The translations under genes and the position numbers were made by a program. The notes under the pieces are model-generated. The model saw only the letters and a list, made by a program, of their open reading frames with translations. It ran no database searches and was not told the DNA's origin. From positions 186,001 to 250,000 of the forward strand of contig NZ_JAGSYF010000002.1 of assembly GCF_025685645.1 (NCBI RefSeq): DNA of 64,000 nucleotides, read 5' to 3'. The stretch is from Edaphobacter bradus. GTDB lineage: Bacteria > Acidobacteriota > Terriglobia > Terriglobales > Acidobacteriaceae. The number at the start of each line of letters is the position of its first letter. Position 1 is the stretch's first letter. Of the stretch, positions 46,274 to 63,606 are shown piece by piece.

Positions 46274-46348
46274 GGCCAGATAGCTCAGTGGTAGAGCGCG
46301 GCCCTGAAAAGGCCGGCGTCGGCGGTTCGATCCCGTCTCTGGCCACCA
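46274..46348 (+). tRNA. tRNA-Phe (GAA)
   Basis: A 75-nt cloverleaf with encoded CCA can be drawn. The acceptor GGCCAGA pairs with TCTGGCC. The D-arm is GCTC/GAGC, and the anticodon stem CGGCC/GGCCG encloses CTGAAAA, giving anticodon GAA. The T-arm has GGTTCGATCCC. It marks the border between GC-rich housekeeping sequence and the accessory catabolic region downstream. Confidence 0.95.
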
Positions 46349-46581
46349 CTTCCAAATCAATAACTTACGAGCCACTTTTCAGGAAGTGCAAGAGATTCGT
46401 CTCGCCAGCGGAAAGCTGACGCGGTCTCCCGAGGCCCTCCGGAAGCGCATGCCATGTTCCCTAGCCGGGGAACTCATCACTCTCCAGGTGGAAGCATTCC
46501 CCATCACCTTTCGAAGCCTGTTCTGAGGCCCGTTTCCGGAATGCATTCAATCACTTCCCCGGAAGACCAGGCCCCCTTATT

Positions 46582-47562
46582 TCACCCGAGTGGTTGGCAT
46601 GGCTGAGCTGCACTTAGTGCAGAATTGACCCGCATGATATTTTCCTTCCCCGTTGTGCTAAGCCAATCGTTAAGGCCCTTTGCGCCATGACGCGCAAAGA
46701 CGCCGATTCCATCCTGCCAAATAGCACGGCCGCAAAGTACGCCATTGAACCTGCTTCCGCTCTCGGCTGCAAATTCCAGGGTTTCGATGAATTGGTCGTT
46801 GGTTACACCCGCAGAGAGGTACACGAACGGCTTATCTGTCGCTGAGGCAGTCGCGAGAAAATGCTGCTGCGCGTCGGAACGTGTGTAGACATGGTCACCG
46901 CAAAAATAACGAGTGCCTGCAACGAACGACATCTGTACAGGAACCTCGATCTTCAGGAGATCGACGGCGTACTGGTTTTTGCTGAACTCTTCAATGGAGC
47001 GTGCGACTATTGCCGGCCTGGCCTTTGCATAGTCCTTGCTCTTTTCATTGCCGCCCATTTCGTAGCCTAGGAGTTCCAAGACAAAAGGAATGTCATTGGC
47101 CAAGCATTCGTCTCCAATACGCTCAACCCACGCTTGCTTCAGGTCGTTGATGGCCGAATCCTCGAAGGGCGTGTAGTGGAGGAGCACCTTAATGCAGTCG
47201 GCACCCGCTTTCTTCATTCGACGCACAGACCAGACATCATACAGGAAAGGCAATCGTGGGGGAGCAGCATCGTAGCTCGATCTTTCGTACGCCAGCAGCA
47301 GTCCTGCTCCGTTGCGTCCCTTTGCTGCAGGGAGACCGTACTCGGGATCGAGCAGGATAGCGGAGGCATATTGCGTCAATGCTCCGGTCACTGCCCTCTT
47401 AAATTCCTCTACCGTCGCGGCGGGAACATCGTCGACTTGCATCTCTCGAGCTATTGCCTTTCGGAGGATGCCTCTTTGGTCCAGCGCAAGTGCCGCGACG
47501 ACACCACGTTCGTTCGATATCGACCTGAGGCCCGCCAGTTTGCCTGGTGTGAGGTGATTGGC
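46582..47562 (-). CDS. LacD/YihT-class aldolase, candidate sulfofructose-1-phosphate aldolase
   Basis: This 326-residue class I aldolase is of the DeoC/LacD family. It has the N-terminal VVAALALDQRGILR and DCIKVLLHY. The expected Schiff-base Lys205 is in VDLLKIEVPV, aligning by eye with DLYKVEMP of E. coli YihT. The phosphate-site block FNGVLCGRAIWQ is also present. LacD cleaves tagatose 1,6-bisphosphate and YihT cleaves 6-deoxy-6-sulfofructose 1-phosphate into dihydroxyacetone phosphate and 3-sulfolactaldehyde. The neighbouring sulfolactate genes favour the YihT-like reaction, but this is inferred from context. It is the last gene of the nine-gene unit, 47 bases after the SerA-like gene. The start is ambiguous (ATG 47562 or GTG 47580). 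Confidence 0.82.
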   Translation of the reverse strand, partial: ANHLTPGKLAGLRSISNERGVVAALALDQRGILRKAIAREMQVDDVPAATVEEFKRAVTGALTQYASAILLDPEYGLPAAKGRNGAGLLLAYERSSYDAAPPRLPFLYDVWSVRRMKKAGADCIKVLLHYTPFEDSAINDLKQAWVERIGDECLANDIPFVLELLGYEMGGNEKSKDYAKARPAIVARSIEEFSKNQYAVDLLKIEVPVQMSFVAGTRYFCGDHVYTRSDAQQHFLATASATDKPFVYLSAGVTNDQFIETLEFAAESGSRFNGVLCGRAIWQDGIGVFARHGAKGLNDWLSTTGKENIMRVNSALSAAQPCQPLG

Positions 47563-47609
47563 CATTTGAACTGATTGCACTCCTTCGTTCTTGACTGTTA
47601 GCAGTAGAT

Positions 47610-48620
47610 TTAGGCAAGCACTGTCGGCGGACTATCACTTTCGCGCGGGGCAGGCACAGCAGAGTTTAGCGGTTTGTTGACGGCGTTTTGGACAGCTCTG
47701 CCTTCAAGCACTCTGGCCACATCGTCGCAGACTGCGCGGGTCACGCGGTCTTGTGCTTCGCGCGTGAGAGCCGCGATGTGGGGAGTCAGAATCAGGTTGG
47801 GGAGCCCTTCCAGAGGCCCCGCAATAGGTGGCTCCGAGGCTCGGACATCCAGAGCAGCTCCCGCGATCACACTTGACTTCAGCGCATGGAGCAGATCTTC
47901 CTCCCGTACGATTTCTCCTCGCGAGGTATTCACCAGGAAGGACGTTGGCTTCATCTTGCGGAAGCGGCTGAGATCTAGCAAGCCTACGGTTTCCTTCGTA
48001 GCTGGTAGATGACAGGACACCACATCTGCGAGTGACAGCAACTCGTCCAAACTCACGAGGTCGGCTTGCAACTCGCCCAGCAAAACGTTGTCGCGACTGA
48101 TAAACGGATCGTAAGCCACGATCTTCATTCCGAGGGCTCGCGCACGTTGTGCCGTGAGATAACCGATCTTTCCTGCGCCAATGATACCCAGCGTCTTGCC
48201 ATAAAGCTCTGTACCGAGGAACTTCTGACGATTCCAATTTCCTGCGCGTGTGTCTTGATTTGCGTCCGGGACCTTGCGGGCAAGAGAGACCATAAGACAG
48301 ATCGCGAGTTCGGCGACGCTGATTGCGTTCTGATCGGGCGTTGATGTAACCAGGACTCCGCGGCGGGTTGCGTGCTCGACGTCTACGTTGTCCAAGCCCA
48401 CACCTGCGCGACCCACGACGATCAGATTTTGAGCAGCATCCAGCAGCACAGAATCTACAGTCGTCTGGTTACGCACGATCAGCCCTCGAAAGTCATTAAT
48501 CTGACGAGCGAGTTCCTTGGAATCTTTCCAAAGATTAGGTAGACGAACAACATCGAACTTTTGACTGAGCGCATCTACCGCGGTGCCGCGGATGTCTTCG
48601 GTGATCAAGATGTCACGCAT
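47610..48620 (-). CDS. SerA-family 2-hydroxyacid dehydrogenase, candidate (S)-sulfolactate dehydrogenase (SlcC-like)
   Basis: The 336-residue NAD-dependent dehydrogenase shows the Rossmann motif LGIIGAGKIGYLTAQRARALGMKIVAYDPF, substrate Gly loop VVGRAGVGLDNVDVEHATRRGV and catalytic residues Arg in LVNTSRGEIV, Glu in DVRASEPP and His in LTPHIAAL. It lacks the C-terminal ACT domain of classical SerA. In sulfolactate degraders SlcC, a member of this family, oxidises (S)-sulfolactate to 3-sulfopyruvate. The gene starts within the last eight bases of the ComC-like gene (ATGCGTGA), so the two are translationally coupled. That pairing with an Ldh2-family gene and SuyAB-like genes is the basis for the proposed role; a phosphoglycerate-like substrate cannot be excluded. 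Confidence 0.8.
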   Translation of the reverse strand: MRDILITEDIRGTAVDALSQKFDVVRLPNLWKDSKELARQINDFRGLIVRNQTTVDSVLLDAAQNLIVVGRAGVGLDNVDVEHATRRGVLVTSTPDQNAISVAELAICLMVSLARKVPDANQDTRAGNWNRQKFLGTELYGKTLGIIGAGKIGYLTAQRARALGMKIVAYDPFISRDNVLLGELQADLVSLDELLSLADVVSCHLPATKETVGLLDLSRFRKMKPTSFLVNTSRGEIVREEDLLHALKSSVIAGAALDVRASEPPIAGPLEGLPNLILTPHIAALTREAQDRVTRAVCDDVARVLEGRAVQNAVNKPLNSAVPAPRESDSPPTVLA

Positions 48621-49677
48621 TGCACTTAGCTACCTCGCTACATAGGAATGGAACATCCAGTTCATTGCACCAATGCCGTAGTTCAATAAGCGTCGGGCCT
48701 GATATAGCGATGCCGAGCGATCTGTTGAGTTGCGCTGTGCGTGACGAGCGTTCGCCCGGGACGAGGATCTCTTCGACACCGGGACGTCTTTTGCTGGCTT
48801 TTATGCGGTCGATCGTCTGGTCGATGCGCTGAATAAATTCAGCCATGTCCATAAAGGCCTCGATATTGAACAGGCAGAAGAAGTGGCCTACATCCTGTTT
48901 GCGATCGAGGTCCTTATACATGGAGCCGACATCGGGCCCGATGGAAGATCCCGAAAGAACTCCGCCGAACAACTCCACCATTAAAGCAAGGGCATATCCT
49001 TTATGTCCCGCCATCGCGAGGACGGTTCCCAAGAGAGCTTGATTCGGATCGGTGGTAGCTTCTCCATTGGGATCGAGTGCCCAGCCAAGAGGAATCGGAT
49101 TCCCCTGCTTCTGCGCAGCGATGATGTTGCCTCGAGCGACGATAGAAGTGGCCAGGTCGATTTTGATGTTGAACCCCTTCCCTGTTGGGAAGGAAACAGC
49201 GATCGGGTTTGTGCCAAAGAACGGTTCGTAGCCACCTTCAGGTGACATGGCACGTTCGCAGTTGGTCATTGCGAGAAGTACCAGACTCTGCTGCGCTGCA
49301 AGATTGCAGTAATAAGAGAGAGCCCCGAAGTGCTGGGAGTTACGGATTGTCGCAGCAGCGACTCCCTTCTGTTTTGCGACGGGGACGAGCAGCTCTAGTG
49401 CCTTGACTGCCTGGACCTGTCCCAAGCCATTGCTGGCATCGAGCGACAGAATACTTCCAAATTTGCGCTCCGTAATAAGTGAGGCCTTCGGATCAATCAG
49501 GCCTGCACGGATTCGCTGGAGATAGATGTTCAGACGAGAGGTGCCGTGTGTTCCAACGCCATGAAGGTCCGCATCAATAAGTGCTTCCGAAAAGATCGCC
49601 GCGTCGGCATCGGGGACACCGACGCGTGTCGATAGTTCAGTTACCAGAGTTTGAATTTGTTCTGGCGAAAATCTCAT
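48613..49677 (-). CDS. Ldh2-family oxidoreductase, candidate (R)-sulfolactate dehydrogenase (ComC-like)
   Basis: The product is a 354-residue NAD(P)-dependent malate/L-lactate/sulfolactate dehydrogenase family protein with its distinctive non-Rossmann fold. Motifs are ADLHGVGTHGTSRLNIYLQRIRAG, DASNGLGQVQAVKALELLVPVAKQKGVAAATIRNSQHFGALSYYCNLAAQQ (His of RNSQHFG is catalytic), GYEPFFGTNPIAVSFPTG and GTVLAMAGHKGYALALMVELFGGVLSG. ComC of this family reduces 3-sulfopyruvate to (R)-sulfolactate. Together with the coupled SlcC-like enzyme it would invert the stereochemistry of sulfolactate. ATG at 49677, 46 bases after the SuyB-like stop. The alternative substrate would be another 2-hydroxy acid such as malate or ureidoglycolate. 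Confidence 0.82.
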   Translation of the reverse strand: MRFSPEQIQTLVTELSTRVGVPDADAAIFSEALIDADLHGVGTHGTSRLNIYLQRIRAGLIDPKASLITERKFGSILSLDASNGLGQVQAVKALELLVPVAKQKGVAAATIRNSQHFGALSYYCNLAAQQSLVLLAMTNCERAMSPEGGYEPFFGTNPIAVSFPTGKGFNIKIDLATSIVARGNIIAAQKQGNPIPLGWALDPNGEATTDPNQALLGTVLAMAGHKGYALALMVELFGGVLSGSSIGPDVGSMYKDLDRKQDVGHFFCLFNIEAFMDMAEFIQRIDQTIDRIKASKRRPGVEEILVPGERSSRTAQLNRSLGIAISGPTLIELRHWCNELDVPFLCSEVAKCNA

Positions 49678-49723
49678 CGTGAGATATCAAAGAAACAATG
49701 TTGCGGTTGCAGTTCCGGCGACA

Positions 49724-50887
49724 TTAGGCGCTCCTGTAGAGCTTGGTCATAACGAACTCACGGTGCCCAAGCGCTTCCGCGGCAGTGAGGCGACCATTTG
49801 CGGTGCGAACGATCATGTCCAAAAGGGCATCGCCAGCTTCATCGATGGTCATCTCGCCTTGAAGAACCGCTGAAACGTCGAGGTCGATGTGCTCTTTCAT
49901 CGTCGCGACTGTCTTGGGATTTCCTGAGAGCTTGATCACAGGCTCAATTGGATTTCCAATGACGTTGCCCTGCCCTGTTGGGAACAGGTGGACCACTGCA
50001 CCGGAGGCTGCCCAGAGCGTGACTGCCTCGGCTGCGGCGCTCGATGTATCCATAAACCAAAAGCCGGATTGGGATGGTGCCTGCGCCGGCTTGAGACAGC
50101 CAACAAATTTCGTCCGCTTGCCGAGCTTCTCTACATTGCCTAGAGCCTTCTCTTCGATCGTGGTAAGCCCGCCAGCGATGTTGCCCTTGGTTGGCTGAGA
50201 CTCCGAGAGGTCGTTCGTTTTCTGATCGAAGACAAGCTTGGTGTAGTCATTGAAGGCTTCGAAGAACTCCTTGCGGACCTCATCGTTGGCGGCCTTTGCA
50301 GCGACAATATGCTCCGCGCCTGTGAGTTCGCTGGTTTCGCCGAACGAAGCGGTTCCACCATCAGCGCAATGCTTATCGATGACGTTACCGACGGTCGGGC
50401 AACTGGAGAGCCCTGTGGTCGTGTCCGACTCGCCGCACTTTACGCTGATGTACAACTCGCTGAGATCACTCTCCTCTCGCTGAAGCTCCGAAGCCCATTG
50501 GAGGTATTCCTTTGCCTGATAGGAAGCGGCTGCGATGGTGGCGATGTCGCCCTTCCCTTCGATTGAAAAGCCCGTGACCGGCTTGCCGGTTTCGGCGATT
50601 CCGTTGACGATGCGCTGGGTCCATCCAGCCTCAATGCCGATCACGACAACAGCCGCCACGTTCGGATTGCTGCCTGTGCCGATCATCGTGCGGAAGAACA
50701 GCTCGAGATCCTCGCCAAATTGGAGGCGCCCATAAGCGTGAGGCAATGCGAGCGTTCCGGGGATATTGTTGGCGACAGCCTGGCATGCTGCGTTTGAAAT
50801 GTCGTCCACGGGAAGGATGATTACGTGGTTACGAACTCCCACGCTTCCGTTCTCTCGCCGGTATCCTAGAATTCTGCGTTTAGCCAT
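49724..50887 (-). CDS. suyB: UxaA-family lyase large subunit, candidate (R)-sulfolactate sulfo-lyase beta (SuyB-like)
   Basis: The 387-residue protein is of the altronate/galactarate dehydratase C-terminal family. It starts [20 protein letters not shown], then [83 protein letters not shown] and [47 protein letters not shown]. Conserved Cys residues are probable metal-cluster or metal ligands. In UxaA and GarD this domain is fused to a small N-terminal SAF domain; here that domain is a separate gene two bases upstream, the arrangement known for SuyA-SuyB, which splits (R)-sulfolactate into pyruvate and sulfite. ATG at 50887 with AGGTGG upstream. The family is certain, the sulfonate substrate inferred. 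Confidence 0.82.
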
Positions 50888-50889
50888 AT

Positions 50890-51171
50890 TTATGCCCACC
50901 TTTTCGTCTTGAGGTTGTGCGTGTGAACGTGATGGCCAGCCTTTACCGGTTGAACAATCCTTCCAATTTCACTGCCATACTTTGTTACCGAATCACCGAC
51001 TGTGAAATCCTTCAGGGCAATCTTGTGACCGAGCGGAATCATCTCCACTGCCTGAGCGCTCAAAGGTTTGTTGTCGGCAAGAATGCGACCCTCGCAATCT
51101 GTACCGAGGGGAATGTCCACGACTGCGACGCCGACGTTATCGACCGCGTTGTGCACAAGGAAATGAATCAT
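50890..51171 (-). CDS. suyA: SAF-domain small subunit, candidate (R)-sulfolactate sulfo-lyase alpha (SuyA-like)
   Basis: The 93-residue protein consists of a single SAF domain ([28 protein letters not shown], then [49 protein letters not shown]). It is the counterpart of the UxaA N-terminal domain. The ending GHHVHTHNL is the typical SAF tail and its His residues are probably metal or substrate ligands. Its size equals that of known SuyA. The ATG at 51171 is preceded by GAGAGGA; the longer open frame to 51273 overlaps the aldehyde dehydrogenase end and is not needed. The stop TAA is two bases before the large-subunit start. Confidence 0.82.
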
Positions 51172-51205
51172 GCCTGCTGTCCTCTCTTCTTTCGTATCGC
51201 ACGAA

Positions 51206-52657
51206 CTAAATACCGCCGATGGAGACATGTTTTGTCTCCAGAAAAGCTTCGAGACCTTCGATTCCCAGTTCACGGCCCCAACCGCTTTGCTTCACTCCAC
51301 CAAAGGGGCTTTGGCTCGTTGATGGAGCTCCATCGTTTATGCCGAGCGTGCCTGCCTCGATTGATTCAGCCAAGCGGAAGATCCGGCCTATGTCGCGGGT
51401 CATCGCGTAGGCACTCAAACCGTAAGGAGTTGCGTTTGCGCGTCGTACTGCTTCCTCCTCGGTTTCGAAGCTGGTGATCGGTGCGATTGGCGCGAAGGTC
51501 TCCTCATTCATGCAGAGCGCCTCATCTCCAACGCCTTCGATGACCGTGGGCTCGAGGAAGTATCCCGAGTGCCCTGCGAGTCGCTTGCCTCCTACGAGCA
51601 CCCTACCTCCATGCATCTCCGCGTCACGAAGCTGCGCGAGGGCACCATCGAGCGCATGCTGGCTGATCATCGGCCCGACATCCATTCCTGGCTCAAGGCC
51701 AGGGCCTACTTTGAGAGCCTTCGCCGCTGCAACAAATCTCTGGACAAAATCGTTGTAGATGGTCTTTTGTACGTAGATGCGGTTGGCCGCAATGCACGAT
51801 TGGCCAGTATTGCGGAACTTGGCAATGATCGCCTCTTGAACGGCGCGATCCAAGTCGCAATCATCAAAGACGAGCAAGGGCGCATGTCCGCCCAACTCAA
51901 GGCAGAGTGGCTTAATGGATTTCGCGGCGCCGCGGATGAGTTCCTGTCCGGTACGTGTTGATCCCGTGAAGCTGATTTTGCGGCAGGTATCGTTTGTGAG
52001 GAATTCTTCGGCGATCATCGCGGCGTTTCCGATTGCCAACTGAAAGACGCCGGAGGGCATGCCGGCCGATTCCATGCATTCAGCAAGTGCGATGGCTGAA
52101 AGCGGAGTTTGCGATGCCGGTTTAAGGATGACCGGGCAACCTGCGGCAAGCGCCGGTGCCACCTTGCGCACGGATAAGACAAGCGGAAAATTCCATGGAG
52201 CGATCGCACCAACAACGCCGATGGGCGTCTTCACGACGAGATGACGCTTGCCTTTGGCCTGGGGAGGGATCATGCGGCCGTAGACACGGCGGCCTTCTTC
52301 AGCAAACCAACGCAGATGGTCTTCCGCCATGGCAACTTCGCCCTCGCTTTGCGCAAGGGGCTTGCCATTCTCCTGCGTGATGATGCGCGCAATTTCGTTC
52401 TTCCTGCGGTTGAGTTCGTCTGCAACTCGATTTAACAGAGCTCCACGCTCTTTCGCAGTGAGACCGCGCCATACCGGAAGAACTGCGGCAGCGGTCTTTA
52501 GTGCGCCGTGAACATGCCCCCGGCCGATTGTGTGTACCCTCGCGAAGGCCTGACCGTTTGCCGGATCAAACACATCGATTGCCTCCTCGGTCGCAACCCA
52601 GGAACCGCCGAGAAAAACCTTCCGAGACACCATTGTGTCGGTTTGAAGTTCAATCAT
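51206..52657 (-). CDS. aldehyde dehydrogenase, candidate sulfolactaldehyde dehydrogenase
   Basis: The 483-residue NAD(P)-dependent aldehyde dehydrogenase is closest in look to the succinate-semialdehyde dehydrogenase (GabD) group. Active-site residues are Glu254 (LELGGHAP) and Cys288 (NTGQSC), with the cofactor motif ISFTGSTRTGQEL and the stabilising Asn in IAPWNFPL. GabD-like enzymes oxidise 3-sulfolactaldehyde to sulfolactate in known sulfoglycolytic pathways, which is the step needed between the aldolase and SlcC-like genes here. GGAAG lies seven bases before the ATG at 52657. The gene follows the GntR regulator by 18 bases and precedes the SuyA-like gene by 34. Confidence 0.87.
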   Translation of the reverse strand: MIELQTDTMVSRKVFLGGSWVATEEAIDVFDPANGQAFARVHTIGRGHVHGALKTAAAVLPVWRGLTAKERGALLNRVADELNRRKNEIARIITQENGKPLAQSEGEVAMAEDHLRWFAEEGRRVYGRMIPPQAKGKRHLVVKTPIGVVGAIAPWNFPLVLSVRKVAPALAAGCPVILKPASQTPLSAIALAECMESAGMPSGVFQLAIGNAAMIAEEFLTNDTCRKISFTGSTRTGQELIRGAAKSIKPLCLELGGHAPLLVFDDCDLDRAVQEAIIAKFRNTGQSCIAANRIYVQKTIYNDFVQRFVAAAKALKVGPGLEPGMDVGPMISQHALDGALAQLRDAEMHGGRVLVGGKRLAGHSGYFLEPTVIEGVGDEALCMNEETFAPIAPITSFETEEEAVRRANATPYGLSAYAMTRDIGRIFRLAESIEAGTLGINDGAPSTSQSPFGGVKQSGWGRELGIEGLEAFLETKHVSIGGI

Positions 52658-52675
52658 CACGCGTCTTCCTTACGG

Positions 52676-53329
52676 TTAGCCAGCCCAACTGAATACGAAC
52701 TTGCCTTCTCTCGCCTGCTGTTCGATCATGAGCCGGGCACCGACCACGTGCTGTCTGGCCTGCCGCTCGGCCTCATCTGCGAAATTGTGCTCGATCGCTT
52801 CGACGATTCGGAGGTGCTCCTCATAGATCACTTTCGGTTCGCGAAAGGCACGCACCATCATGCCGAGAACGCGATAGGTCTCGGACAGACGCAGCAAAAT
52901 GCTGTTGCGCGAGAGTTCAATGATCTTCATATGAAAAGCCCGGTCGAGCGATGCGGTCTCCGTATTCTTGTTTTCTTGTGCCAGACGAAAGATGGTTTCC
53001 GTCATCTCACGAAGCGTCGCGATATCGGCTCGTCCAGCATTGCCGCAGGCCAACCTTGCGGCCTGACCTTCAAGAACTTCACGGATCTGATATGCCTCGC
53101 AGATTCGGGAGGCGTCGAGCTTATCGACAAACACCCCCAAGTGGTCGACTGATTCGACCAAACCGAGCCAATGAAGTTCGAGAAGGGACTCTCGCACTGT
53201 CCCTTGAGCGACACCGAGCTCTCGAGCCAAACTCTGCTGGCTCAGGCGTTCACCTGCTTTGGACTCCCCGGATAGGATCCGGCGCTGAATCTCATCTCGC
53301 ACGTGATGCCGAGCGACCTTTGCCTTCAT
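52676..53329 (-). CDS. GntR/FadR-type transcriptional regulator
   Basis: The 217-residue protein has an N-terminal winged helix (VRDEIQRRILSGESKAGERLSQQSLARELGVAQGTVRESLLELHWLGLVES) and a C-terminal all-helical FCD effector domain (ICEAYQIREVLEGQAARLA, DRAFHMKIIELSRNSILLRL, EEHLRIVEAIEHNFADEAERQARQHV). The His and Asp residues in DRAFH, HLRIVEAI and RQHV are the usual metal/ligand sites of this domain. AGGAGG is five bases before the ATG. The effector is most likely a pathway intermediate (sulfolactate, sulfosugar or phosphate ester). A 15-base motif repeated upstream of this gene and upstream of the whole operon is the candidate operator. Confidence 0.9.
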   Translation of the reverse strand: MKAKVARHHVRDEIQRRILSGESKAGERLSQQSLARELGVAQGTVRESLLELHWLGLVESVDHLGVFVDKLDASRICEAYQIREVLEGQAARLACGNAGRADIATLREMTETIFRLAQENKNTETASLDRAFHMKIIELSRNSILLRLSETYRVLGMMVRAFREPKVIYEEHLRIVEAIEHNFADEAERQARQHVVGARLMIEQQAREGKFVFSWAG

Positions 53330-53367
53330 CTTGTCCTCCTAAACTCGACTGGAGCGAAATCTCTTTG

Positions 53368-53382
53368 GCAATTGATTGTAAA
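53368..53382. promoter_or_regulatory. candidate operator, copy 1 (GCAATTGATTGTAAA)
   Basis: This 15-base sequence differs by one base from 56206-56220 in the promoter of the first operon gene. It lies in the 100-base gap between the isomerase-like and GntR genes, 39 bases upstream of the regulator start. Fourteen identical bases at the only two large gaps of the operon suggest a regulatory site, most simply for GntR itself. Confidence 0.5.
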
Positions 53383-53429
53383 CTATTACGATTTGAAGCG
53401 AACTTTTGCTCGTTTTGTGTTCGAGTTTA

Positions 53430-54800
53430 TTAGTGCCAATTCAAACCTAAAAGTCGTGCAAGTCTACGAAATGTCTCCCCTGATCTACCCGGATAGAGAG
53501 AGACGTGATGGGGCATTCCGGCATGAATCAGGTCATCGAAGCGCGCTGGTACATCCTTGCCATCCACTTCCACCAGGATGCTGTTGCCAGTAACTTTTCG
53601 TTTGGGCTGGACGGCAACTCCCTCGAAGGCCGTCAGATGGTATGTACCGTCACATCGCCATAGCCGCGCTACGGTAACTGGCTGACCCGATCGAAGAGGA
53701 CCGTCTACCACAAATGGTCTGGCCCCGTTGAAGTGTGGCCCAAGAGTGGGGCCTTCTTCGCTCCCGATGTCATGGCAGAGATCAAGAGGCGCCATGCCCG
53801 GATGCCAGAAGAAGATGCTGGAGCGATCGTGTTCAAGCCAATCCGTCAGGAATCCGGGGCCTATTCCGAGGTAGCGGCTCATCAAGCTTTGAATGGCACC
53901 ATCGACGTCTCCCTCGATCGAGACCGAGGTGCCCTCAGCTGTCAAACGGGATACAGCCAGATAGGGCCAATGACCAAAGACAATGGGCAATTCCGGCCAG
54001 CATTGCAAGCTCAGAGCGTCTAGTTTGGCTTCGCTCATGATGTCACCGAGAGAAAGGTAGTAGCGAGAACTAATCTCGAGAGTCTCCTCAGAGACGGGAA
54101 AGTCGGAGCCGGGTGATGCTTGAAGGCCCAGTTCGCGAACCCTTTTCACATCTTGCTGCACTCGCTCCTTCGAAACGGCGTTCACGCGGTCTATATATTG
54201 TGCAAGGCTAAGGGACAACTGCTGAATGCCGATCCCTTTGCGCGACAGGAAGGGATCGGCCGCAAGGTCGACAAATCCAGGTGCGTGGTTGCCGATGACA
54301 CCGACCTTGGCGCGCTGCAAGCGAGAGACTGTCGTTGCAAGCGAGATCGCGCGCGCCAGATCAGCCTGTATCTTGACGTCTTCGCCATCGCCATAGACGA
54401 GCTCAAAAGGATGGCCTGCTTGCCGAAGAATCGACGCAAAAAGATGCGCTCCGACCAAAGAGCAGGAACTTACATTACCATCTCCAGGCCTCTCAGGAGT
54501 TGCCCAGAGGACAATGGGCCCAGACCACTGCTGCATGATCGAAAATGCGAACTGGCCGTCTGCGATCGAAGGCTGAATGATGATCAGGGCGTCGCACTTA
54601 GCTTGCTGAATGGAGGCTAATGCGGCTCGGATGGTTGGATCGTCGAAGACAAGCGCGTCAGCGCCGACCGGGCCCATGTCGAGGTGGTCGAGCACTCCAA
54701 GGGAACAGGTCCGGACGATCTTGCTCCAGTCCTGATCGAAGCCCGGCCGCTTTCGGCTGAACACCAGTACCCCAATCCTCTTCTTTGAATCGCTTTGCAT
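53430..54800 (-). CDS. L-fucose/arabinose isomerase-fold protein, candidate sulfosugar isomerase
   Basis: The 456-residue protein has the layout of the FucI/AraA superfamily. There are two alpha/beta domains (GVLVFSRKRPGFDQDWSKIV, KCDALIIIQPSIADGQFAFSIM, GPIVLWATPE) and the contact segment NVSSCSLVGAHLFASILRQAGHPFELVYGD. Late metal-site blocks are LDALSLQCWPELPIVFGHWPYLAVSRLTAEGTSVSIEGDVDGAIQSL and FFWHPGMAPLDLCHD. Glu, Asp and His residues in these blocks are probable Mn ligands. As the only isomerase beside a sugar kinase and aldolase, it would convert an aldose (sulfoquinovose) to the ketose. GGAG precedes the ATG at 54800 by six bases. It is distant from classical FucI; the substrate is inferred from context. 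Confidence 0.75.
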   Translation of the reverse strand: MQSDSKKRIGVLVFSRKRPGFDQDWSKIVRTCSLGVLDHLDMGPVGADALVFDDPTIRAALASIQQAKCDALIIIQPSIADGQFAFSIMQQWSGPIVLWATPERPGDGNVSSCSLVGAHLFASILRQAGHPFELVYGDGEDVKIQADLARAISLATTVSRLQRAKVGVIGNHAPGFVDLAADPFLSRKGIGIQQLSLSLAQYIDRVNAVSKERVQQDVKRVRELGLQASPGSDFPVSEETLEISSRYYLSLGDIMSEAKLDALSLQCWPELPIVFGHWPYLAVSRLTAEGTSVSIEGDVDGAIQSLMSRYLGIGPGFLTDWLEHDRSSIFFWHPGMAPLDLCHDIGSEEGPTLGPHFNGARPFVVDGPLRSGQPVTVARLWRCDGTYHLTAFEGVAVQPKRKVTGNSILVEVDGKDVPARFDDLIHAGMPHHVSLYPGRSGETFRRLARLLGLNWH

Positions 54801-54821
54801 CCGGAACTCCATTGATGATTA

Positions 54822-56012
54822 CTATGAATTGCGCTGTAACGACGAGTGATCAAAATACTCTGGCAGATCGCCGGCCAGAGCAGATACGTAGCTGATGAAG
54901 TCTTGATTTACCGAGAGCGGGCCATCAGAGAGTAGATCTTCAGGGATGGTGCGCTCTTCTCCCGCGATGTCACTGAGATCGACGAGATCGTATTTGTTCG
55001 CCTCAAAACCAGAGAGTGGGAGCAGCGCGACCATCTTGTCAGAATTACCGAGTGTGAGGGCATGAACGCCTGCTCGTCCTACCAGTTCTGCGTCAGCGAG
55101 GTCCTGCTCGGAGACATGAGACACGGATGCTCTCCCGAGGAGTCCGGGTTTTTCGCTGCGGCAACGGATGTGTAGACGGTCGGAAACCATTTTGGCGAGA
55201 AATTCTCCAACCCCGCCAGTAAGTGGACGCTTCAGCGCGTCGAACTGGGATGGATTGGTCGTCTGATAGACAAGATTTCTCTCCGTATCACGGAGTCCTT
55301 CGGCAACCACGACGACAGCCCAGTCTTGCCTGGTTAGAAGCCTTTCCAGATCGCTTAGAAACATGTCTGCTGCAAAGGGACGCTCAGGCAAGTACACGAG
55401 GTGCGGGGCGTCGCCCTCGCATCTCTTACCAACAACCGAGGCACCGGCAAGCCAGCCGACGCTCCGGCCCATCGTTTCGAGGATGGAGACAGGTTGGGGG
55501 AGCGAACGTATATCCAGACCAAGATCGCGCGTGGACTGCGCTATATAACGTGCGGCACTACCGAAGCCCGGACTACGGTCCGTTCTCGCGATGTCATTAT
55601 CTATCGTCTTCGGCACACCAATGATCTGGAGCTCATAGCCTGCGTTGCGACAGAAGGCGCCAACCGCCTCCGCACCACGCATCGTCCCGTTGCCTCCCAC
55701 GAACAGGATGCTGTGCACGGAAGATGCCCTGAGATGGCCGAGCATCTTCTCAAAATCTTCGTCGCACGGTTTGTAACGAGATGTGCGGAGCGCGGCTCCG
55801 CTGGTATTGCGCAGGAGGCCGAGGTCTCGCGATGAGAGCCCGCCTAGATCAACGTAATCCCCATTAACCAGGCCGAGAAGGCCGGACTGCGCTCCAGAGA
55901 TGCGCCCGAACGCCTTCAACTGCGACGCTTCCGAGATGATGGAAGAGAGGCTCGCATTCAATACGGCAGTTGGCCCACCTCCTTGAACGACCAACAAGTT
56001 ACCGACCGTCAT
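54822..56012 (-). CDS. PfkA-family sugar kinase, candidate 6-deoxy-6-sulfofructose kinase
   Basis: The 396-residue protein is of the phosphofructokinase superfamily. It has the start NLLVVQGGGPTAVLNASLSSII, GGNGTM at 106-111 and PKTIDNDI at 134-141 (catalytic Asp of TIDND), and ILETMGRSVGWLAGAS. The Gly after GGN (GGNGT) is the state seen in ATP users, while Lys in PKTIDND occurs in PPi users and some ATP users, so ATP is favoured but not proved. Fructose 6-phosphate is the usual substrate; here a 6-sulfo sugar would replace the phosphate. GGGAAG is eight bases before the ATG at 56012. First gene of the operon, 21 bases before the isomerase-like gene. Confidence 0.85.
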   Translation of the reverse strand: MTVGNLLVVQGGGPTAVLNASLSSIISEASQLKAFGRISGAQSGLLGLVNGDYVDLGGLSSRDLGLLRNTSGAALRTSRYKPCDEDFEKMLGHLRASSVHSILFVGGNGTMRGAEAVGAFCRNAGYELQIIGVPKTIDNDIARTDRSPGFGSAARYIAQSTRDLGLDIRSLPQPVSILETMGRSVGWLAGASVVGKRCEGDAPHLVYLPERPFAADMFLSDLERLLTRQDWAVVVVAEGLRDTERNLVYQTTNPSQFDALKRPLTGGVGEFLAKMVSDRLHIRCRSEKPGLLGRASVSHVSEQDLADAELVGRAGVHALTLGNSDKMVALLPLSGFEANKYDLVDLSDIAGEERTIPEDLLSDGPLSVNQDFISYVSALAGDLPEYFDHSSLQRNS

Positions 56013-56192
56013 CTCGTGCACTTCCCTTTTGCCCGCGTGGCGTTGAGGATCTGATTTCCATCCATGAATTCACGTATGTAGGCCACCGAATTACAGAAAT
56101 GACCGACTCGCTAAGCAGTTTCGCTGCATCGTTCACCGGAAGTCCTGCTTTGCGTCTAACTTTATTCTCTCGCACGAATGCTTATTGGTTAG

Positions 56193-56220
56193 ATTGTAAT
56201 CGATTGCAATTGATTGTCAA
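56193..56220 (-). promoter_or_regulatory. sigma-70-like promoter of the sulfosugar operon with operator copy 2
   Basis: On the minus strand TTGACA (56220-56215) is followed after 16 bases by TACAAT (56198-56193), about 180 bases before the first operon gene. The repeated 15-base motif (56206-56220) covers the -35 element and much of the spacer. The area also contains small palindromes AATCGATT and ATTGCAAT. A repressor bound here would block RNA polymerase directly. Confidence 0.55.
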
Positions 56221-56302
56221 TGGAATTATGGGAGTGAGGCGCGCATGTGACGCAAACAATGAGACACAACTTCCGCTGTCGCACCTGGAGAGGACGAGTC
56301 AA

Positions 56303-56330
56303 CCCTGGGGAGTTGTTTGACTTCCCAGGG
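56303..56330 (-). terminator. terminator-like hairpin after the TonB receptor gene
   Basis: CCCTGGGGAG (56303-56312) pairs with CTTCCCAGGG (56321-56330) with one wobble and an eight-base loop. It lies 24 bases downstream of the receptor stop on the minus strand. The T-tract is better in the plus direction (TCTCTTT). Confidence 0.5.
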
Positions 56331-56354
56331 TCTCTTTACAGAAAGCTTAGACCT

Positions 56355-59300
56355 TCAGAAGTAGAGCTTCAATGCCAATTGCCCCAGTCTTGGATTGCTA
56401 CGAAGTGAGGTGATTGAGCTAAACGCCGTGAGGTTCGTGAAGTTTAATTGACCAGGTTGCCCAAATTGCGCCCGGTTGAACAGATTGAAGGCTTCGGCGC
56501 GGAATTCTACGATTGTTTGATCCGACACCTTGAATTGTTTGAAGAAAGATGCGTCCACATTGCTGAGAGTTGGTCCACGTACCTGTTGTGGTTTTCCGCC
56601 GAGAACTGAATAATCCGTCTGACCGATCGCAGTTGCAGCAGGTGGCTGAGTAAATGCGCTTGGGTTCAGCCATTGAGTACGGTTGTGCGGTCCGGCGTAG
56701 GGATTCTGACCAGGTACCAAATTTGCATTGCAGCCAAAATCCGAGCTGGTCGCGAGTGGGCAGCCGACATTGAATGGCTGGCCGCTTTGATAGATGTAGA
56801 TAAAGTTGAGATGCCAACCGCTGACAAACGCATTCGCCACGTTGTTCGCATTGCTCAGGAACTTGCTCCCCTTCCCGATCGGCAATGCGTATTGTCCAGA
56901 CAAGTGGAAAGCATGGGTTGCATCAGAGGGGCAGAGAGAATAATCAGGCTTGATTCCGAAACCGGTCAGCCATTGGGCCCTGAATCCGCCTGACAGCGGT
57001 CCTTTACCAGCGTCATTGGACATACACTTGCCATACGTGTAGTTCGCCAGCACACCGAGCCCATCGTCGAACTGGTGTGTATACACAGTCTGTAACGACT
57101 GATAGCTGCTTTTGGCATTTGTAGCAAAATACTGTGAACCGCCAGCAAGGGTCGGGAGCGGTCTATAGTTCGTCTGGTTTACGCTGGTCGGCAAGATTTG
57201 CGAAGGAGCGTTATGCTGGCCGATCGTATCAAGGTGTCTGCCCAGTGACCCTACATATCCAGCCTGAATCGAATCATGCTTGGTGAACTGGTACTGAACA
57301 TTCAGGTTGAGACTCTGGATGTAGGGGGTTTGGTAGTTATACTGCTTGCCGCTGAGGCTCAGGTTTTTGCCATTGATCAAAGTTGAATCCTGCAGATTGA
57401 TCGTGCCAAATGTATTTTCAATGGTAGCAGTCTGATTGTTGGAAAGCGTGACCGGGACAAGCGACGTCGTGTTAGGCGAGTTGAGTGTGTACTGGAACGG
57501 GTAGTTCGTCCCCAGAGTTCCGCCGTATCCGACCGAGTCAAACGCACCATACGCGATACCGTATCCCGCACGTACGGCAAGGTTGGGGAACAGTCGATAT
57601 GCGATTCCAAGGCGCGGAGCAAAATTGGTCGTCTGCGCGTTGTACACCGTGTCCCCAGAGAGGCACTTGATCTGAATGTTGTAACTCGCTAGCAATGAGT
57701 TGAACCCTGCAGAGCGCGGTACATTGCATCCGTCCTTAGCAATATAGTAAGTGCCCGTGGACCCGTTGCCGCCGTCCATGATGAAGTTGGCTTGTCGTCC
57801 GTTGGACTCGTTGAAGGGAGAGAAGTAGTCCCAGCGGAGGCCTAGATTCAGTGTCAGAGTAGGGGTGGCCTTCCACGAATCCTGCGCAAAGATGCCAGTA
57901 TAGTACGAGGAATAATTTGTGCCTGCGTAATTCGAACCGTTGTAGCTGCTGAGACCTCCCAGATTGTCGTATGCCGTAATCCCTGGCAGCCCGCTCACCG
58001 TGGAAACGGTTGGGATGAGTTCCATATCCGCGATGCCAGTCAGCCCTGTGGTTAGATTCGGAATGTCTGTGTACTGCCCGCTGAAGGTAAAGTTCCCTCG
58101 GCTGTACGCTGGCTGGACGATGTGTCCGATGATGCGCTCAAGCTGAAACCCAACCTTTAGCTCATGGTTTCCGTGGATCTTGGTCACATTATCGGAGTAC
58201 TCATACGCACCAGTTGTTTGAATTGTCGGACTGAACCGGCGGCCTCCAAATGCACTGAATCCACCTACATTGAAGGTAGGCAGTCCACCGTTGTTGGGAA
58301 TCTGCGGTATTCCCTGGATGCCATACTGCTCAGGTAAGCCCATCGCGTCAGCAGTGGGCAGGATCCGCGTGTTGTAGTTGTGATCAATTCCAAAGCGCGC
58401 TTCGTTGATAAAGGTGGGGGAAAATGCATGTGTGTAGCTCAAGGCGAGTACATATACGGGCTGAGTCGTCGCAAATGCGATCTGCAGCGCTCCGCCCGCA
58501 GCACCAGCAAACGGCTGGGCCGACGTAACATTTTGCGTGCTTCGGCTAAAGACCCCAAAGACCGAGTCTCTCGCGCTGAAGGTGTGATCGATTCGTATAT
58601 CGTACTGATTGGTGATTGAGTGCTGCAAAGGAGCGACGAAATAGTTATTCGTAATGCCATTCGAAGTTGGAGCCGGAAGCAACTGAAGCAACTTGACCAC
58701 GTTGGGATCGATTCGGGAAGTAGGAATGATGTTGAGCTGCGATGTAGCGCCAACGAAGTTGGTGGTTCCTACCAAGCTTCCGGTGTAGAACGGATCACGG
58801 ACATACACTGTGCCGGTCGTGGTATTGACTAGACCCGTCACCGGATCAATCTTGCCCGATGCGATAGCTCGCGTTGTCGCGGGATCAAGGACTGTTCCAT
58901 GGGGGAATTTGCGTCCCAACCCGTCGGTCCCCGTTCCACTATTCGCGTTGATCAAATCCTGCAGATTTGTGAAGTTGCTGCTCCTCATCGAAGCGGTCGG
59001 AACACTGTCCGTAAAGCTGGTCGACTGCACAAACGGCGTGCGCTGGTAGTCAAAGAAAAAGAATGTCTTGTTTTTCCCGTTATAGAGATGCGGAATGTAG
59101 ACGGGGCCGCCGAGTGTTCCGCCAAACTGATTCTGGCGATATTCCTGACGCCTCAGATGATGCAAGTTGGAGAAGTAATCGTTGGCGTTGAGCGCCTCGT
59201 TCCTGAAGTACTCCCAGACGTCGCCCCGCAGTGAGTTTGTACCGGACTTGACCGCGGCATTCACTACCGCGCCCGCAGAATGGCCGAATTCTGCGCTGTT

Positions 59301-60023
59301 GTTGCCGTCCTGCAACTTGAATTCCACGATTGCATCTGGAACCGGTGCAACGGTGGTACCTCCAAACACTTCGCCATTGTCATTGATTCCGTTCAACCTG
59401 AAGTCTACCTGGCCATTCTCCGCACCATTCGCCAACACAGAGGTTACGTTATTGGGCGATGATCCCGGATTCACATAAGTACCAGCCGCGAGCATCGTCA
59501 ACGAAAGCCAGTTGCGCCCATTGAGCGGCAAATCATTGACAGCTGCGGAAGAAACGGTCTGACCGAGAGACGCATCCTGCGCCTGCAGCAGTGGTGCCGC
59601 CGAAGTGACCGTCACCTGCTGACTTACACTCCCTAGCGTGAGTTGGACATCAGCCGTGATGACGCTTTGGATATGCACTTGCAAGCCATTTGCGATATAT
59701 GTCCCGAATCCGCGCGCTTCAACGCGCAATGTATAGGTACCGGGCAGGACTGCTTCGAAAACGTAGGTTCCCGAAGAAGAGGCTCTCGCCTTCTCCGATA
59801 TGCCTGTCGCCTCATTTGTCAGCGTGAGTTGTGCCCCTGCTACTACAGCGCCGGACGGGTCTCTTACAGTACCTGCCACACCGCCCCTGTCAATTTGCGC
59901 GGCCAGTTGCAGTGAAAAGCCGAAGAAGATCACACACATCAAAAACAGCATGAAATATTTGCTTTTCTTGAACGGGGATCCCGGTTGAAACGATGTGTCG
60001 ACGACTACTTTCGTTTGATGCAT
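56355..60023 (-). CDS. TonB-dependent receptor, Oar-like with carboxypeptidase-regulatory domain
   Basis: The 1222-residue outer-membrane protein has a signal segment (about 24-42), then a carboxypeptidase regulatory-like beta-sandwich (GGVAGTVRDPSGAVVAGAQLTLTNEATGISEKARASSSGTYVFEAVLPGTYTLRVEARGFGTY). A plug domain follows (ASLGQTVSSAAVNDLPLNGRNWLSLTMLAAG), then a very long beta-barrel ending VEFRAEAFNLFNRAQFGQPG and LGQLALKLYF with the usual terminal aromatic residue. Such receptors are abundant in Acidobacteria and import or bind glycans and peptides. GGAGG lies eight bases before the ATG at 60023. It stands between the sulfosugar operon and glycoside hydrolase genes, which suggests uptake of a (sulfo)glycoside; that role is inferred. 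Confidence 0.92.
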   Translation of the reverse strand: MHQTKVVVDTSFQPGSPFKKSKYFMLFLMCVIFFGFSLQLAAQIDRGGVAGTVRDPSGAVVAGAQLTLTNEATGISEKARASSSGTYVFEAVLPGTYTLRVEARGFGTYIANGLQVHIQSVITADVQLTLGSVSQQVTVTSAAPLLQAQDASLGQTVSSAAVNDLPLNGRNWLSLTMLAAGTYVNPGSSPNNVTSVLANGAENGQVDFRLNGINDNGEVFGGTTVAPVPDAIVEFKLQDGNNSAEFGHSAGAVVNAAVKSGTNSLRGDVWEYFRNEALNANDYFSNLHHLRRQEYRQNQFGGTLGGPVYIPHLYNGKNKTFFFFDYQRTPFVQSTSFTDSVPTASMRSSNFTNLQDLINANSGTGTDGLGRKFPHGTVLDPATTRAIASGKIDPVTGLVNTTTGTVYVRDPFYTGSLVGTTNFVGATSQLNIIPTSRIDPNVVKLLQLLPAPTSNGITNNYFVAPLQHSITNQYDIRIDHTFSARDSVFGVFSRSTQNVTSAQPFAGAAGGALQIAFATTQPVYVLALSYTHAFSPTFINEARFGIDHNYNTRILPTADAMGLPEQYGIQGIPQIPNNGGLPTFNVGGFSAFGGRRFSPTIQTTGAYEYSDNVTKIHGNHELKVGFQLERIIGHIVQPAYSRGNFTFSGQYTDIPNLTTGLTGIADMELIPTVSTVSGLPGITAYDNLGGLSSYNGSNYAGTNYSSYYTGIFAQDSWKATPTLTLNLGLRWDYFSPFNESNGRQANFIMDGGNGSTGTYYIAKDGCNVPRSAGFNSLLASYNIQIKCLSGDTVYNAQTTNFAPRLGIAYRLFPNLAVRAGYGIAYGAFDSVGYGGTLGTNYPFQYTLNSPNTTSLVPVTLSNNQTATIENTFGTINLQDSTLINGKNLSLSGKQYNYQTPYIQSLNLNVQYQFTKHDSIQAGYVGSLGRHLDTIGQHNAPSQILPTSVNQTNYRPLPTLAGGSQYFATNAKSSYQSLQTVYTHQFDDGLGVLANYTYGKCMSNDAGKGPLSGGFRAQWLTGFGIKPDYSLCPSDATHAFHLSGQYALPIGKGSKFLSNANNVANAFVSGWHLNFIYIYQSGQPFNVGCPLATSSDFGCNANLVPGQNPYAGPHNRTQWLNPSAFTQPPAATAIGQTDYSVLGGKPQQVRGPTLSNVDASFFKQFKVSDQTIVEFRAEAFNLFNRAQFGQPGQLNFTNLTAFSSITSLRSNPRLGQLALKLYF

Positions 60024-60090
60024 GTGTGCTGCCTCCAAAGCGAGCTATGGATTTACGGTTGCTTCTTTCCTGGGGCGCTGCTCGGCGGAA

Positions 60091-60131
60091 ACTATATGCA
60101 TGCGATATCGGATTGTCAAGAGAACGGTCTC
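60091..60131 (-). promoter_or_regulatory. receptor promoter with abutting palindrome GAGAACGGTCTC
   Basis: On the minus strand TTGACA (60119-60114), a 17-base spacer and TATAGT (60096-60091) form a near-consensus promoter 68-96 bases before the receptor start. The palindrome (60120-60131) abuts the -35 with no gap. The same design occurs at 63334-63375. Confidence 0.7.
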
Positions 60132-60279
60132 TGAAATCTAATTGCCCGCGAAAATGGAGCGCCTTGGAGGCGACTCAATTCACATACAAGCTCTTGTTAT
60201 AGGGAGATTTTTTCTCGCGAGATAGCACGAAAAGTGATCTCGAAACCTCGATTTTTTAAGGCTAGGGATGTTGACGCGA

Positions 60280-60291
60280 GAGACCGGTCAT
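60280..60291. promoter_or_regulatory. distal palindrome copy GAGACCGGTCAT
   Basis: This is a second, less perfect copy of the GAGACCGGTCTC motif, 160 bases upstream of the promoter-proximal copy of the receptor gene. It lies in the gap after the glycoside hydrolase gene. The rest of the 60132-60456 gap contains no gene. Confidence 0.45.
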
Positions 60292-60456
60292 TCATAAAAC
60301 TCCGACTCAATCCGTCCGACTTTTTTGCGGTCAAGAAGCTATCCTGCTGCCGGGACGAGCCGTCGGCTTTCCTTGGCAATTCTGGCGTAAGCGGTGTCAT
60401 TTCGCAAAAGTTGATACCGGCCAGCCTCGGATCTGACAGTTCGTCGTCATGGGTGC

Positions 60457-63279: not shown

Positions 63280-63333
63280 GGAGTTGCCCCTCCCATGACC
63301 AAGATTGTTTTGCAATGGGTGCGACGGGAAGCC

Positions 63334-63375
63334 ACTATAAGGTTGCGAGCGATTCTTTGTCAAGATACCGGTCTC
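63334..63375 (-). promoter_or_regulatory. hydrolase promoter with abutting palindrome GATACCGGTCTC
   Basis: On the minus strand TTGACA (63363-63358), an 18-base spacer and TATAGT (63339-63334) lie 55-84 bases before the hydrolase start. The palindrome (63364-63375) directly abuts the -35, exactly as at the receptor promoter. Confidence 0.7.
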
Positions 63376-63486
63376 ACATCTTAACTTAGAGATGGGAAAC
63401 CATATTATGCCCTTTTATTTCTCACTCCAATCGCGTTGTTAGAGACTAGCGCCATCCGTCTAGAACCCTATTCTGTTTTGGAGTGA

Positions 63487-63498
63487 GAGATCGGTCTC
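63487..63498. promoter_or_regulatory. distal palindrome copy GAGATCGGTCTC
   Basis: This is a fourth copy of the motif, with one mismatch to the GAGACCGGTCTC palindrome. It lies 123 bases upstream of the promoter-proximal copy of the hydrolase gene, in the gap 63280-63606 that otherwise contains no gene. Confidence 0.5.
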
Positions 63499-63606
63499 GC
63501 TGCAATTCATCGCGCCAGACTTGACGCCCTCAAACAACAGGACTCTTGAGACCTAGTTTCCACAGGACGGATGTTTTCTCAGTCATTTTGCGCTTTAGCG
63601 CGTTTC

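Follow-up and report, generated by a model that had tools for sequence, protein, structure and literature searches.

A predicted operon for the conversion of a sulfosugar to pyruvate and sulfite in the acidobacterium Edaphobacter bradus

In a window of 64,000 nucleotides from the genome of Edaphobacter bradus (assembly GCF_025685645.1, contig NZ_JAGSYF010000002.1, positions 186,001 to 250,000), we identified nine consecutive genes that probably form a hybrid operon, in which a front end of the sulfo-Embden-Meyerhof-Parnas (sulfo-EMP) type would be joined to a sulfolactate sulfo-lyase and a sulfosugar, probably sulfoquinovose, would be converted to dihydroxyacetone phosphate (DHAP), pyruvate and sulfite within one cell. 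Sulfoquinovose is the head group of plant sulfolipid. Estimates put it at about 10 billion tonnes annually (PMC12890257), and its breakdown by sulfoglycolysis has been described as ending in excreted C2 or C3 sulfonates, the degradation of which is completed by other organisms (PMC13372026, PMC9594981). Judged from the predicted proteins and their neighbours, breakdown of sulfolactate to sulfite by the operon is very likely, and we hold with good confidence that a sulfosugar would be the starting substrate; that sulfoquinovose is the main sugar is a reasonable expectation.

All nine open reading frames lie on the minus strand at the positions expected, separated by -10 to +100 bases after the SuyA gene is trimmed, and their families were assigned by Pfam and NCBIfam profile searches of all nine proteins. 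A sequence-only reading of the window had named eight of them; the ninth, which it left out of its gene-by-gene list, encodes a GntR/FCD family regulator (52676..53329; PF00392 and PF07729) that has the same position in many relatives. The first gene of the operon encodes a PfkA-family sugar kinase (54822..56021), proposed to act as a sulfofructose 1-kinase in a SqiK-like role, and is followed by genes for a FucI/AraA-fold aldose-ketose isomerase (53430..54812), the proposed sulfoquinovose isomerase, for the regulator, and for an aldehyde dehydrogenase (ALDH) of the succinate-semialdehyde dehydrogenase (SSADH) group (51206..52660), the proposed sulfolactaldehyde dehydrogenase (SLADH). Next come the small SAF-domain subunit SuyA (50890..51171) and the large subunit SuyB (49724..50899; GD_AH large-subunit family) of a predicted (R)-sulfolactate sulfo-lyase, an Ldh_2 family protein that is the candidate ComC (48613..49677), a SerA-like D-2-hydroxyacid dehydrogenase that is the candidate SlcC (47610..48620; PF02826/PF00389) and a class I aldolase of the LacD/DeoC family (46582..47580), the proposed sulfofructose-1-phosphate aldolase. 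The SuyA gene very probably starts at the ATG at 51171, giving a protein of 93 residues, the length found in relatives, rather than at 51273; with this start there is no overlap with the ALDH gene.

These families suggest a complete route. The isomerase would convert the sulfosugar to sulfofructose, the kinase would form sulfofructose 1-phosphate, and the aldolase would split it into DHAP and (S)-sulfolactaldehyde, which the ALDH would oxidize to (S)-sulfolactate. SlcC, forming sulfopyruvate, and ComC, reducing it, would together turn (S)-sulfolactate into (R)-sulfolactate, from which SuyAB would release sulfite and leave pyruvate. We infer every substrate in this scheme, and its stereochemistry, from the families and their arrangement.

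The half of the route that starts from sulfolactate is well supported by the clade of SuyB and by gene context, in line with the earlier description of the lyase as SuyAB-like. The small SAF subunit and the large subunit are separate, adjoining proteins in that order, as expected of SuyAB, and in four reference plasmids the small-subunit protein encoded next to SuyB is 39-48% identical to SuyA. A search of plasmid records with SuyB matched 315 records, of which we considered the best 40; 13 records contain a protein 62-69% identical to SuyB, and the next among the matches listed has 40.8% identity. We opened seven of the 13, and the five that are annotated all fit sulfonate clusters, only the first of them naming sulfonate enzymes: Cupriavidus pinatubonensis HN-2 carries hpsN and hpsO, Paracoccus versutus a putative sulfate exporter, Rhodococcus genes for an ALDH, a hydroxyacid dehydrogenase and an Ldh protein, Methylobacterium a TauE protein and a molybdopterin oxidoreductase, and Paracoccus aestuarii hydroxyacid dehydrogenase, Ldh and exporter genes. 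The two unannotated records are from Caballeronia and from Sinorhizobium mexicanum, in which tblastn found SuyA-, SlcC- and ComC-like genes and which has been named as a carrier of SlcC, ComC, SuyA and SuyB homologues (PMC12421959).

A tree of 38 SuyB rows (the window's protein, 22 relatives excluding the truncated L018, seven plasmid references and eight others, among them E. coli UxaA and GarD) cut the 30 Suy-type rows off from the eight others by a branch with 100/100 support, the branches among the others being long; the reference rows were called Suy from gene context, not from assay of those proteins. Thirty positions are conserved in at least 29 of the 30 Suy rows while none of the eight outsiders has them, and there is no second SuyB match in the genome at E <= 0.001. 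It is very improbable, in our judgement, that the lyase is instead an altronate/galactarate-type dehydratase and that the operon degrades sugar acids. Galactarate dehydratase is the only match NCBIfam offers, at 131.6 bits against a cutoff of 730.85; the tree places the lyase apart from these dehydratases, and we rejected that identity on the clade split, the identity gap and the 30 Suy-specific positions. By these comparisons the lyase is SuyB-type, and it is predicted to release sulfite from (R)-sulfolactate.

The gene set is more than a chance assembly, because relatives retain its order. When named genomes were scanned for the isomerase, 37 loci were returned, 33 acidobacterial, three from Planctomycetes and one from a spirochaete, and 19 of these contain the full core (kinase, isomerase, ALDH, SuyA, SuyB, ComC and SlcC) in the same order; in L005 and L032 the contig begins within the kinase gene. 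Contig ends cut 13 of the 18 loci without a full core. Two of the 18 lack only the kinase and two only ComC and SlcC, all at contig ends; three break off within or beyond the ALDH gene, nine have the kinase and isomerase only, and two have only the isomerase and an ALDH match. Among the last 11, L008, L026, L035, L037 and L040 have at least 7 kb past the isomerase with no lyase, and the rest end soon after it.

The two halves of the operon also occur together across genomes. Among 348 genomes of the family, the isomerase was found in 25, SuyB (E <= 1e-60) in 31 and both in 24, against 2.2 expected (hypergeometric 9e-30, not corrected for kinship), and the single genome with the isomerase and no SuyB is 67% complete. 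The two genes lie at most 5 kb apart in 20 of the 24 genomes, 17.7 kb apart in one and on different contigs in three. Seven genomes have SuyB only: G657 and G699 have it on short contigs, G694 has just SuyA, SuyB and ComC 3.3 kb from a contig start, G570 has just the sulfolactate module with its regulator, G399 and G536 have a more distant SuyB (69-70%), and G642 has a SuyB fragment only. Across the phylum, 5 of 396 genomes have the isomerase at E < 1e-200, with 32 further distant matches at 5e-19 or weaker, and within the genus it is present in 2 of the 22 genomes listed. The same-genus genome G382, whose isomerase is identical from residue 2 onward to an Edaphobacter acidisoli protein, has the whole core with a LacD-type aldolase nearby. 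The distribution of the operon is patchy but coherent.

The isomerase has no Pfam match; among the NCBIfam profiles it matches that of the sulfoquinovose isomerase SftI, with 164.7 bits, and besides this only the one for L-arabinose isomerase, with 19.7 bits. By its SftI score it is a relative of SftI rather than an equivalog. The FucI fold that had been proposed for it agrees with an AlphaFold model built from 21 sequences (pLDDT 87.9), for which the best Foldseek row is an L-arabinose isomerase (TMq 0.84), with L-fucose isomerases at 0.77-0.79. Residues E296, D320, H333 and H432 (numbering of the 456-residue form) are invariant in all 21 sequences, and we take them, by motif and by AraA/FucI numbering, to be the equivalents of the metal ligands of AraA and FucI.

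The PfkA-like assignment of the kinase was borne out by PF00365, with PRK14072 as the NCBIfam match (350 bits). We did not adopt the pyrophosphate dependence that the name of the NCBIfam entry carries, since the kinase combines GGNG with PKTIDND, a mixed signature under the rule for positions 104 and 124, and ATP as the cosubstrate is accordingly a guess. Among relatives longer than 300 residues (31 of 33), GGNG(T/S) occurs in 28, with no pattern match in three, and PKT(I/V)DND in all 31. The genome has another phosphofructokinase (PFK) on contig 1 (L057, G000:C1:574388-575275), which contains GGDD(T) with PKTIDND; this combination, GGDDT with PKTIDND, presumably points to pyrophosphate dependence. 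This other PFK is of the housekeeping type and is separate from the operon kinase.

The sulfosugar front end draws its strongest support from the recurrence of the kinase-isomerase pair in independent contexts. In all three planctomycete loci (L034, L035 and L040) a class II fructose-bisphosphate-type aldolase gene lies directly before the kinase gene; only the L035 copy was scanned with NCBIfam, its frame being shorter than the profile, and the others are 76-78% identical to it. A FucI-type isomerase, a PF00365 kinase and a class II aldolase (SqvD, SqiK and SqiA) are the trio described for the sulfo-EMP2 pathway (PMC9594981), and these three loci are candidates for sulfo-EMP2 outside Firmicutes. 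On a plasmid of the chloroflexote Candidatus Chlorohelix allophototropha (L069, 5254-21103) the pair occurs with an SSADH-like ALDH 47% identical to that of the window, a nitrite/sulfite reductase, siroheme genes, a SerA-like dehydrogenase and a threonine-synthase-like gene. The isomerase there scores 343 bits to SftI. The 25 kb examined contain no match to SuyAB, and this gene set possibly represents another way to remove the sulfonate.

These contexts bear on whether the sugar genes instead serve an unsulfonated sugar and merely adjoin a sulfolactate operon. The kinase, aldolase and isomerase belong to broad families and the modules also occur apart (sulfolactate genes only in L112, sugar genes only in L008 and L026), yet the isomerase is accompanied by SuyB in 24 of 25 genomes, the order is common to 19 loci, the pair occurs with a sulfite reductase in Chlorohelix and the isomerase is related to SftI, and we consider an unsulfonated sugar quite improbable. 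The sugar half of the proposed operon stands, by homology and context, on the SftI relationship, the recurring pair and the co-occurrence with SuyB.

For the step that cuts the carbon chain, the earlier assignment to a LacD/YihT class held for LacD and not for YihT. The aldolase matches the NCBIfam tagatose-1,6-diphosphate aldolase subfamily at 405 bits (cutoff 184), and the tagatose-1,6-bisphosphate aldolases of the PDB match it at 285 bits but YihT at only 38 bits, on which we rejected the YihT class; the DQR, K(I/V)E(V/M)P, LS(A/S)GV and GRAxW motifs of the aldolase align with YihT. The examined flanks contain a LacD relative in 12 of the 19 full-core loci, and in 13 when all 37 loci are counted. 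A transaldolase gene lies directly before the kinase gene in 5 of the 37 loci, two of which also have LacD, and the one locus transaldolase that was scanned with profiles is of the talAB type.

The transaldolase genes raise a different route, in which a transaldolase (TAL) encoded elsewhere would move the glycerone half of sulfofructose onto glyceraldehyde 3-phosphate, as in the sulfo-TAL pathway, and the operon kinase and LacD aldolase would recycle the fructose 6-phosphate formed. Besides these five loci, it is favored by the single transaldolase of the window's genome, which is 64% identical to the profile-scanned locus copy, and by the Chloroflexi and Thermotogae clusters with SuyAB, which are described as using a transaldolase (PMC9594981). 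Against it, no transaldolase is encoded within the operon, the genome already has another PFK, and the planctomycete version consists of a kinase and an aldolase with no transaldolase match in the examined flanks. We regard the sulfo-TAL route as unlikely, and direct action of the kinase and LacD aldolase on the sulfosugar, rather than recycling after a transaldolase, as the probable arrangement.

The enzymes predicted to act between the aldolase and the lyase were compared with their characterized relatives. The ALDH is closest to SSADHs, and its fourth-best PDB match is 8c54, the SLADH of R. leguminosarum (450 bits). It contains the motifs WNFPLVLSVR and FRNTGQSC, with the Trp-Asn-Phe tripeptide and equivalents of Arg171 and Arg289; this tripeptide and the two arginines have been proposed to bind the sulfonate in SLADH (PMC10599462). 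Each motif is found in 25 of the 26 ALDHs longer than 440 residues from the loci. The ComC candidate has L-sulfolactate dehydrogenase both as its best NCBIfam match (271.8 bits, below the cutoff of 500) and as its best PDB match (2x06). In trees built with every second relative, the SlcC candidate forms a group with its SerA-like counterpart from the Rhodococcus SuyAB cluster at 92/92 support, which is below the program's star.

Several observations weigh against the proposed conversion of a sulfosugar to pyruvate and sulfite. To our knowledge no assay exists for this branch of the enzyme families. The isomerase lies far under the SftI cutoff of 700 bits, the aldolase is LacD-like, 7 of the 19 full-core loci have no LacD in the examined flanks (some of which are short), and the transaldolase genes before the kinase count on the same side. 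In three acidobacterial loci, L008 and L026 with a kinase and L037 without one, there is no lyase in about 10 kb downstream of the isomerase. The ALDH motifs are also found in ordinary SSADHs, so they do not prove a sulfolactaldehyde substrate. The Ldh2 tree that includes the ComC candidate lacks resolution and has long branches; this protein is 34-41% identical to the reference copies from SuyAB clusters and 33.7% identical to E. coli AllD, and the SlcC candidate is 41-45% identical to its reference copies and 36.7% identical to E. coli SerA, values so near one another that sequence alone does not settle the identities of the two dehydrogenases. Nor is there a SqvB/YihR-like gene among the nine of the operon. 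Finally, no YihQ-type sulfoquinovosidase was identified among the genome's six GH31 matches, in a search confined to GH31 whose residue check reached two of them. Of the five that were aligned (L048 was left out), one has T/N/Y and one R/W/H at the three positions that we take as the YihQ signature (Arg301, Trp304 and Tyr508 in E. coli YihQ), and the other three alignments fall short. The proposed route is supported by the SuyB clade and identity gap, the relationship to SftI, the kept order of the core, the co-occurrence in 24 of 25 genomes, the presence in the ALDH of the arginines proposed to bind the sulfonate, and the separate housekeeping-type PFK in the genome.

The same chemistry could act on a sulfosugar other than sulfoquinovose, for instance sulfofucose or one not yet described, which would be compatible with the route proposed here and which we consider a minor possibility. 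The isomerase has a FucI/AraA fold and the aldolase is LacD rather than YihT, LacD-type aldolases being lax at C4. No YihQ-type glycosidase was identified in the GH31 comparison above, but the extended locus near the operon (L055 1607-14071, G000:C2:249607-262071) encodes two proteins matching DUF6259, one of them under the Pfam cutoff, and further proteins of the DUF5054 and GH2 families. Use of sulfofucose by a soil Paracoccus with SuyAB has been published, but this sugar is documented in two reports only, as described there (PMC12421959), and the nearest curated relative of the isomerase is a sulfoquinovose isomerase.

How a sugar would be taken up and released is suggested by the neighbouring genes. 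Upstream of the operon, a minus-strand gene (56355..60038) encodes a TonB-dependent outer-membrane transporter (CarboxypepD_reg and OMP_b-brl_4) that is a possible importer for it. Beyond the window, L055 also encodes a major facilitator superfamily (MFS) transporter and an M24 peptidase, and these, with the DUF6259, DUF5054 and GH2 proteins, may serve import and release of the sugar. MFS relatives occur in 11 of the 37 isomerase loci, M24 in six, DUF6259 in three, DUF5054 in two and GH2 in three. The DUF6259, DUF5054 and GH2 proteins are candidate sulfosugar-releasing enzymes. As for the sulfite that would be formed, the genome encodes proteins of the TauE family (two) and the Oxidored_molyb family (three), as well as two in which NIR_SIR domains are paired; all of them lie away from the operon. 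We also noted a secreted-looking protein of 968 residues (60457-63363) with no Pfam match, the second half of which repeats, by eye, a Trp-rich lectin-like pattern.

The region before the kinase gene contains a candidate sigma-70-like promoter on the minus strand (56193..56220; TTGACA-16-TACAAT), which has 11 of 12 consensus matches and is the best site of its region in a pattern scan. Promoter-like sites in the region are as frequent as in shuffles (five observed, 5.0 expected), so only its quality and place favor this candidate. Within it lies a palindrome, ATTGCAATCGATTACAAT (56193-56210, 16/18), whose core AATCGATT is common to palindromes upstream of the L016 kinase gene and between the M24 and MFS genes of L055; we take palindromes with this core to be of the LacI-operator type, and a LacI-like gene was recognized by eye at L055 14520-15530. 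Enrichment of palindromes before the kinase gene was not supported, as seven relatives have one at the threshold, as do 14% of shuffles. Any regulation of the operon through these sites is conjectural.

The genome (4.75 Mb, 99.7% complete) carries the operon on contig 2, on the 3' side of a tRNA-Phe gene (46274-46348), with the last operon gene ending 233 bases from the tRNA 3' end. The G+C content of the operon is 0.555 against 0.631 on its left side, and the drop together with the neighbouring tRNA-Phe gene suggests lateral arrival. The block that the tRNA 3' side faces (46400-64000) is lower in G+C (0.52-0.56 against 0.63) and resembles a genomic island. Integration at the tRNA-Phe gene with duplication of an att site was not supported, as the 24-base 3' end of the gene has no second exact copy across the genome.

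The operon is a new combination in Acidobacteria rather than a new kind of system. Sulfo-EMP2, as described for Bacillus urumqiensis and Megamonas rupellensis, also combines a FucI-type isomerase, a PF00365 kinase and an aldolase, with an SLADH in the aerobic case, a likeness drawn from published family descriptions (PMC9594981) rather than from sequence; unlike it, the operon has a class I LacD in place of the class II SqiA (PF01116), and the operon is itself predicted to go on to degrade the sulfolactate formed. The sulfo-EMP pathway of E. coli (YihS, YihV and YihT) has the same predicted intermediates and class I aldolase motifs in common with the operon, but its isomerase and kinase (YihV being PfkB) belong to other families and its aldolase is the distant YihT. 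Hybrid sulfo-EMP/EMP2 clusters are reported from Vibrio, where they yield 2,3-dihydroxypropane-1-sulfonate (PMC13372026).

The sequence-only reading had called it unusual for one operon both to cleave a sulfosugar and to desulfonate the product. This agrees with the authors of the tandem sulfofucolytic-sulfolactate sulfolyase pathway shown in Paracoccus wurundjeri, who call such coexistence unusual (PMC12421959), and has to be qualified by precedents, since apart from Paracoccus an extended sulfoglycolysis with SuyAB was proposed from gene clusters for Thermotogae and Chloroflexi (PMC9594981). The latter likewise place sulfosugar cleavage and SuyAB together, with full carbon use proposed, but use a transaldolase and belong to other phyla, whereas the operon has a kinase and an aldolase and no transaldolase. 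P. wurundjeri is a soil bacterium that likewise has SlcC, ComC and SuyAB downstream of sulfolactaldehyde; its front end is of the Entner-Doudoroff type for sulfofucose, with no SLADH identified according to that report, whereas the operon includes an SSADH-group ALDH. Within the phylum, suyAB, slcC and comC have been reported in the peat acidobacterium SbA5 (Hausmann et al. 2018, PMC6018796), where they are described as supplying sulfite for respiration, the same downstream module as here; our locus L031 from this organism holds the whole core with an aldolase and a transaldolase, and that account, in its passages on sulfolactate, makes no mention of the sugar half. The phylum is not listed in a review table (PMC12890257), and we found no description of sulfoglycolysis in Acidobacteria in the open-licence literature searched.

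On balance we lean toward the view that soil Acidobacteria are an unrecognized guild of single-organism sulfosugar mineralizers, with a new SqvD/SqiK-like isomerase-kinase subfamily as a fixed front end that takes different carbon-carbon cutters (LacD class I aldolase, class II aldolase or transaldolase) and is here joined to a sulfolactate lyase. If the proposed route is correct, one organism would carry out what is commonly described as the work of two, and the release of sulfite from sulfosugars by bacteria of soil and peat would need no second organism, which would bear on the control of soil organic sulfur. Sulfite-respiring relatives such as SbA5, as that organism is described (PMC6018796), could then link plant sulfolipid to anaerobic respiration.

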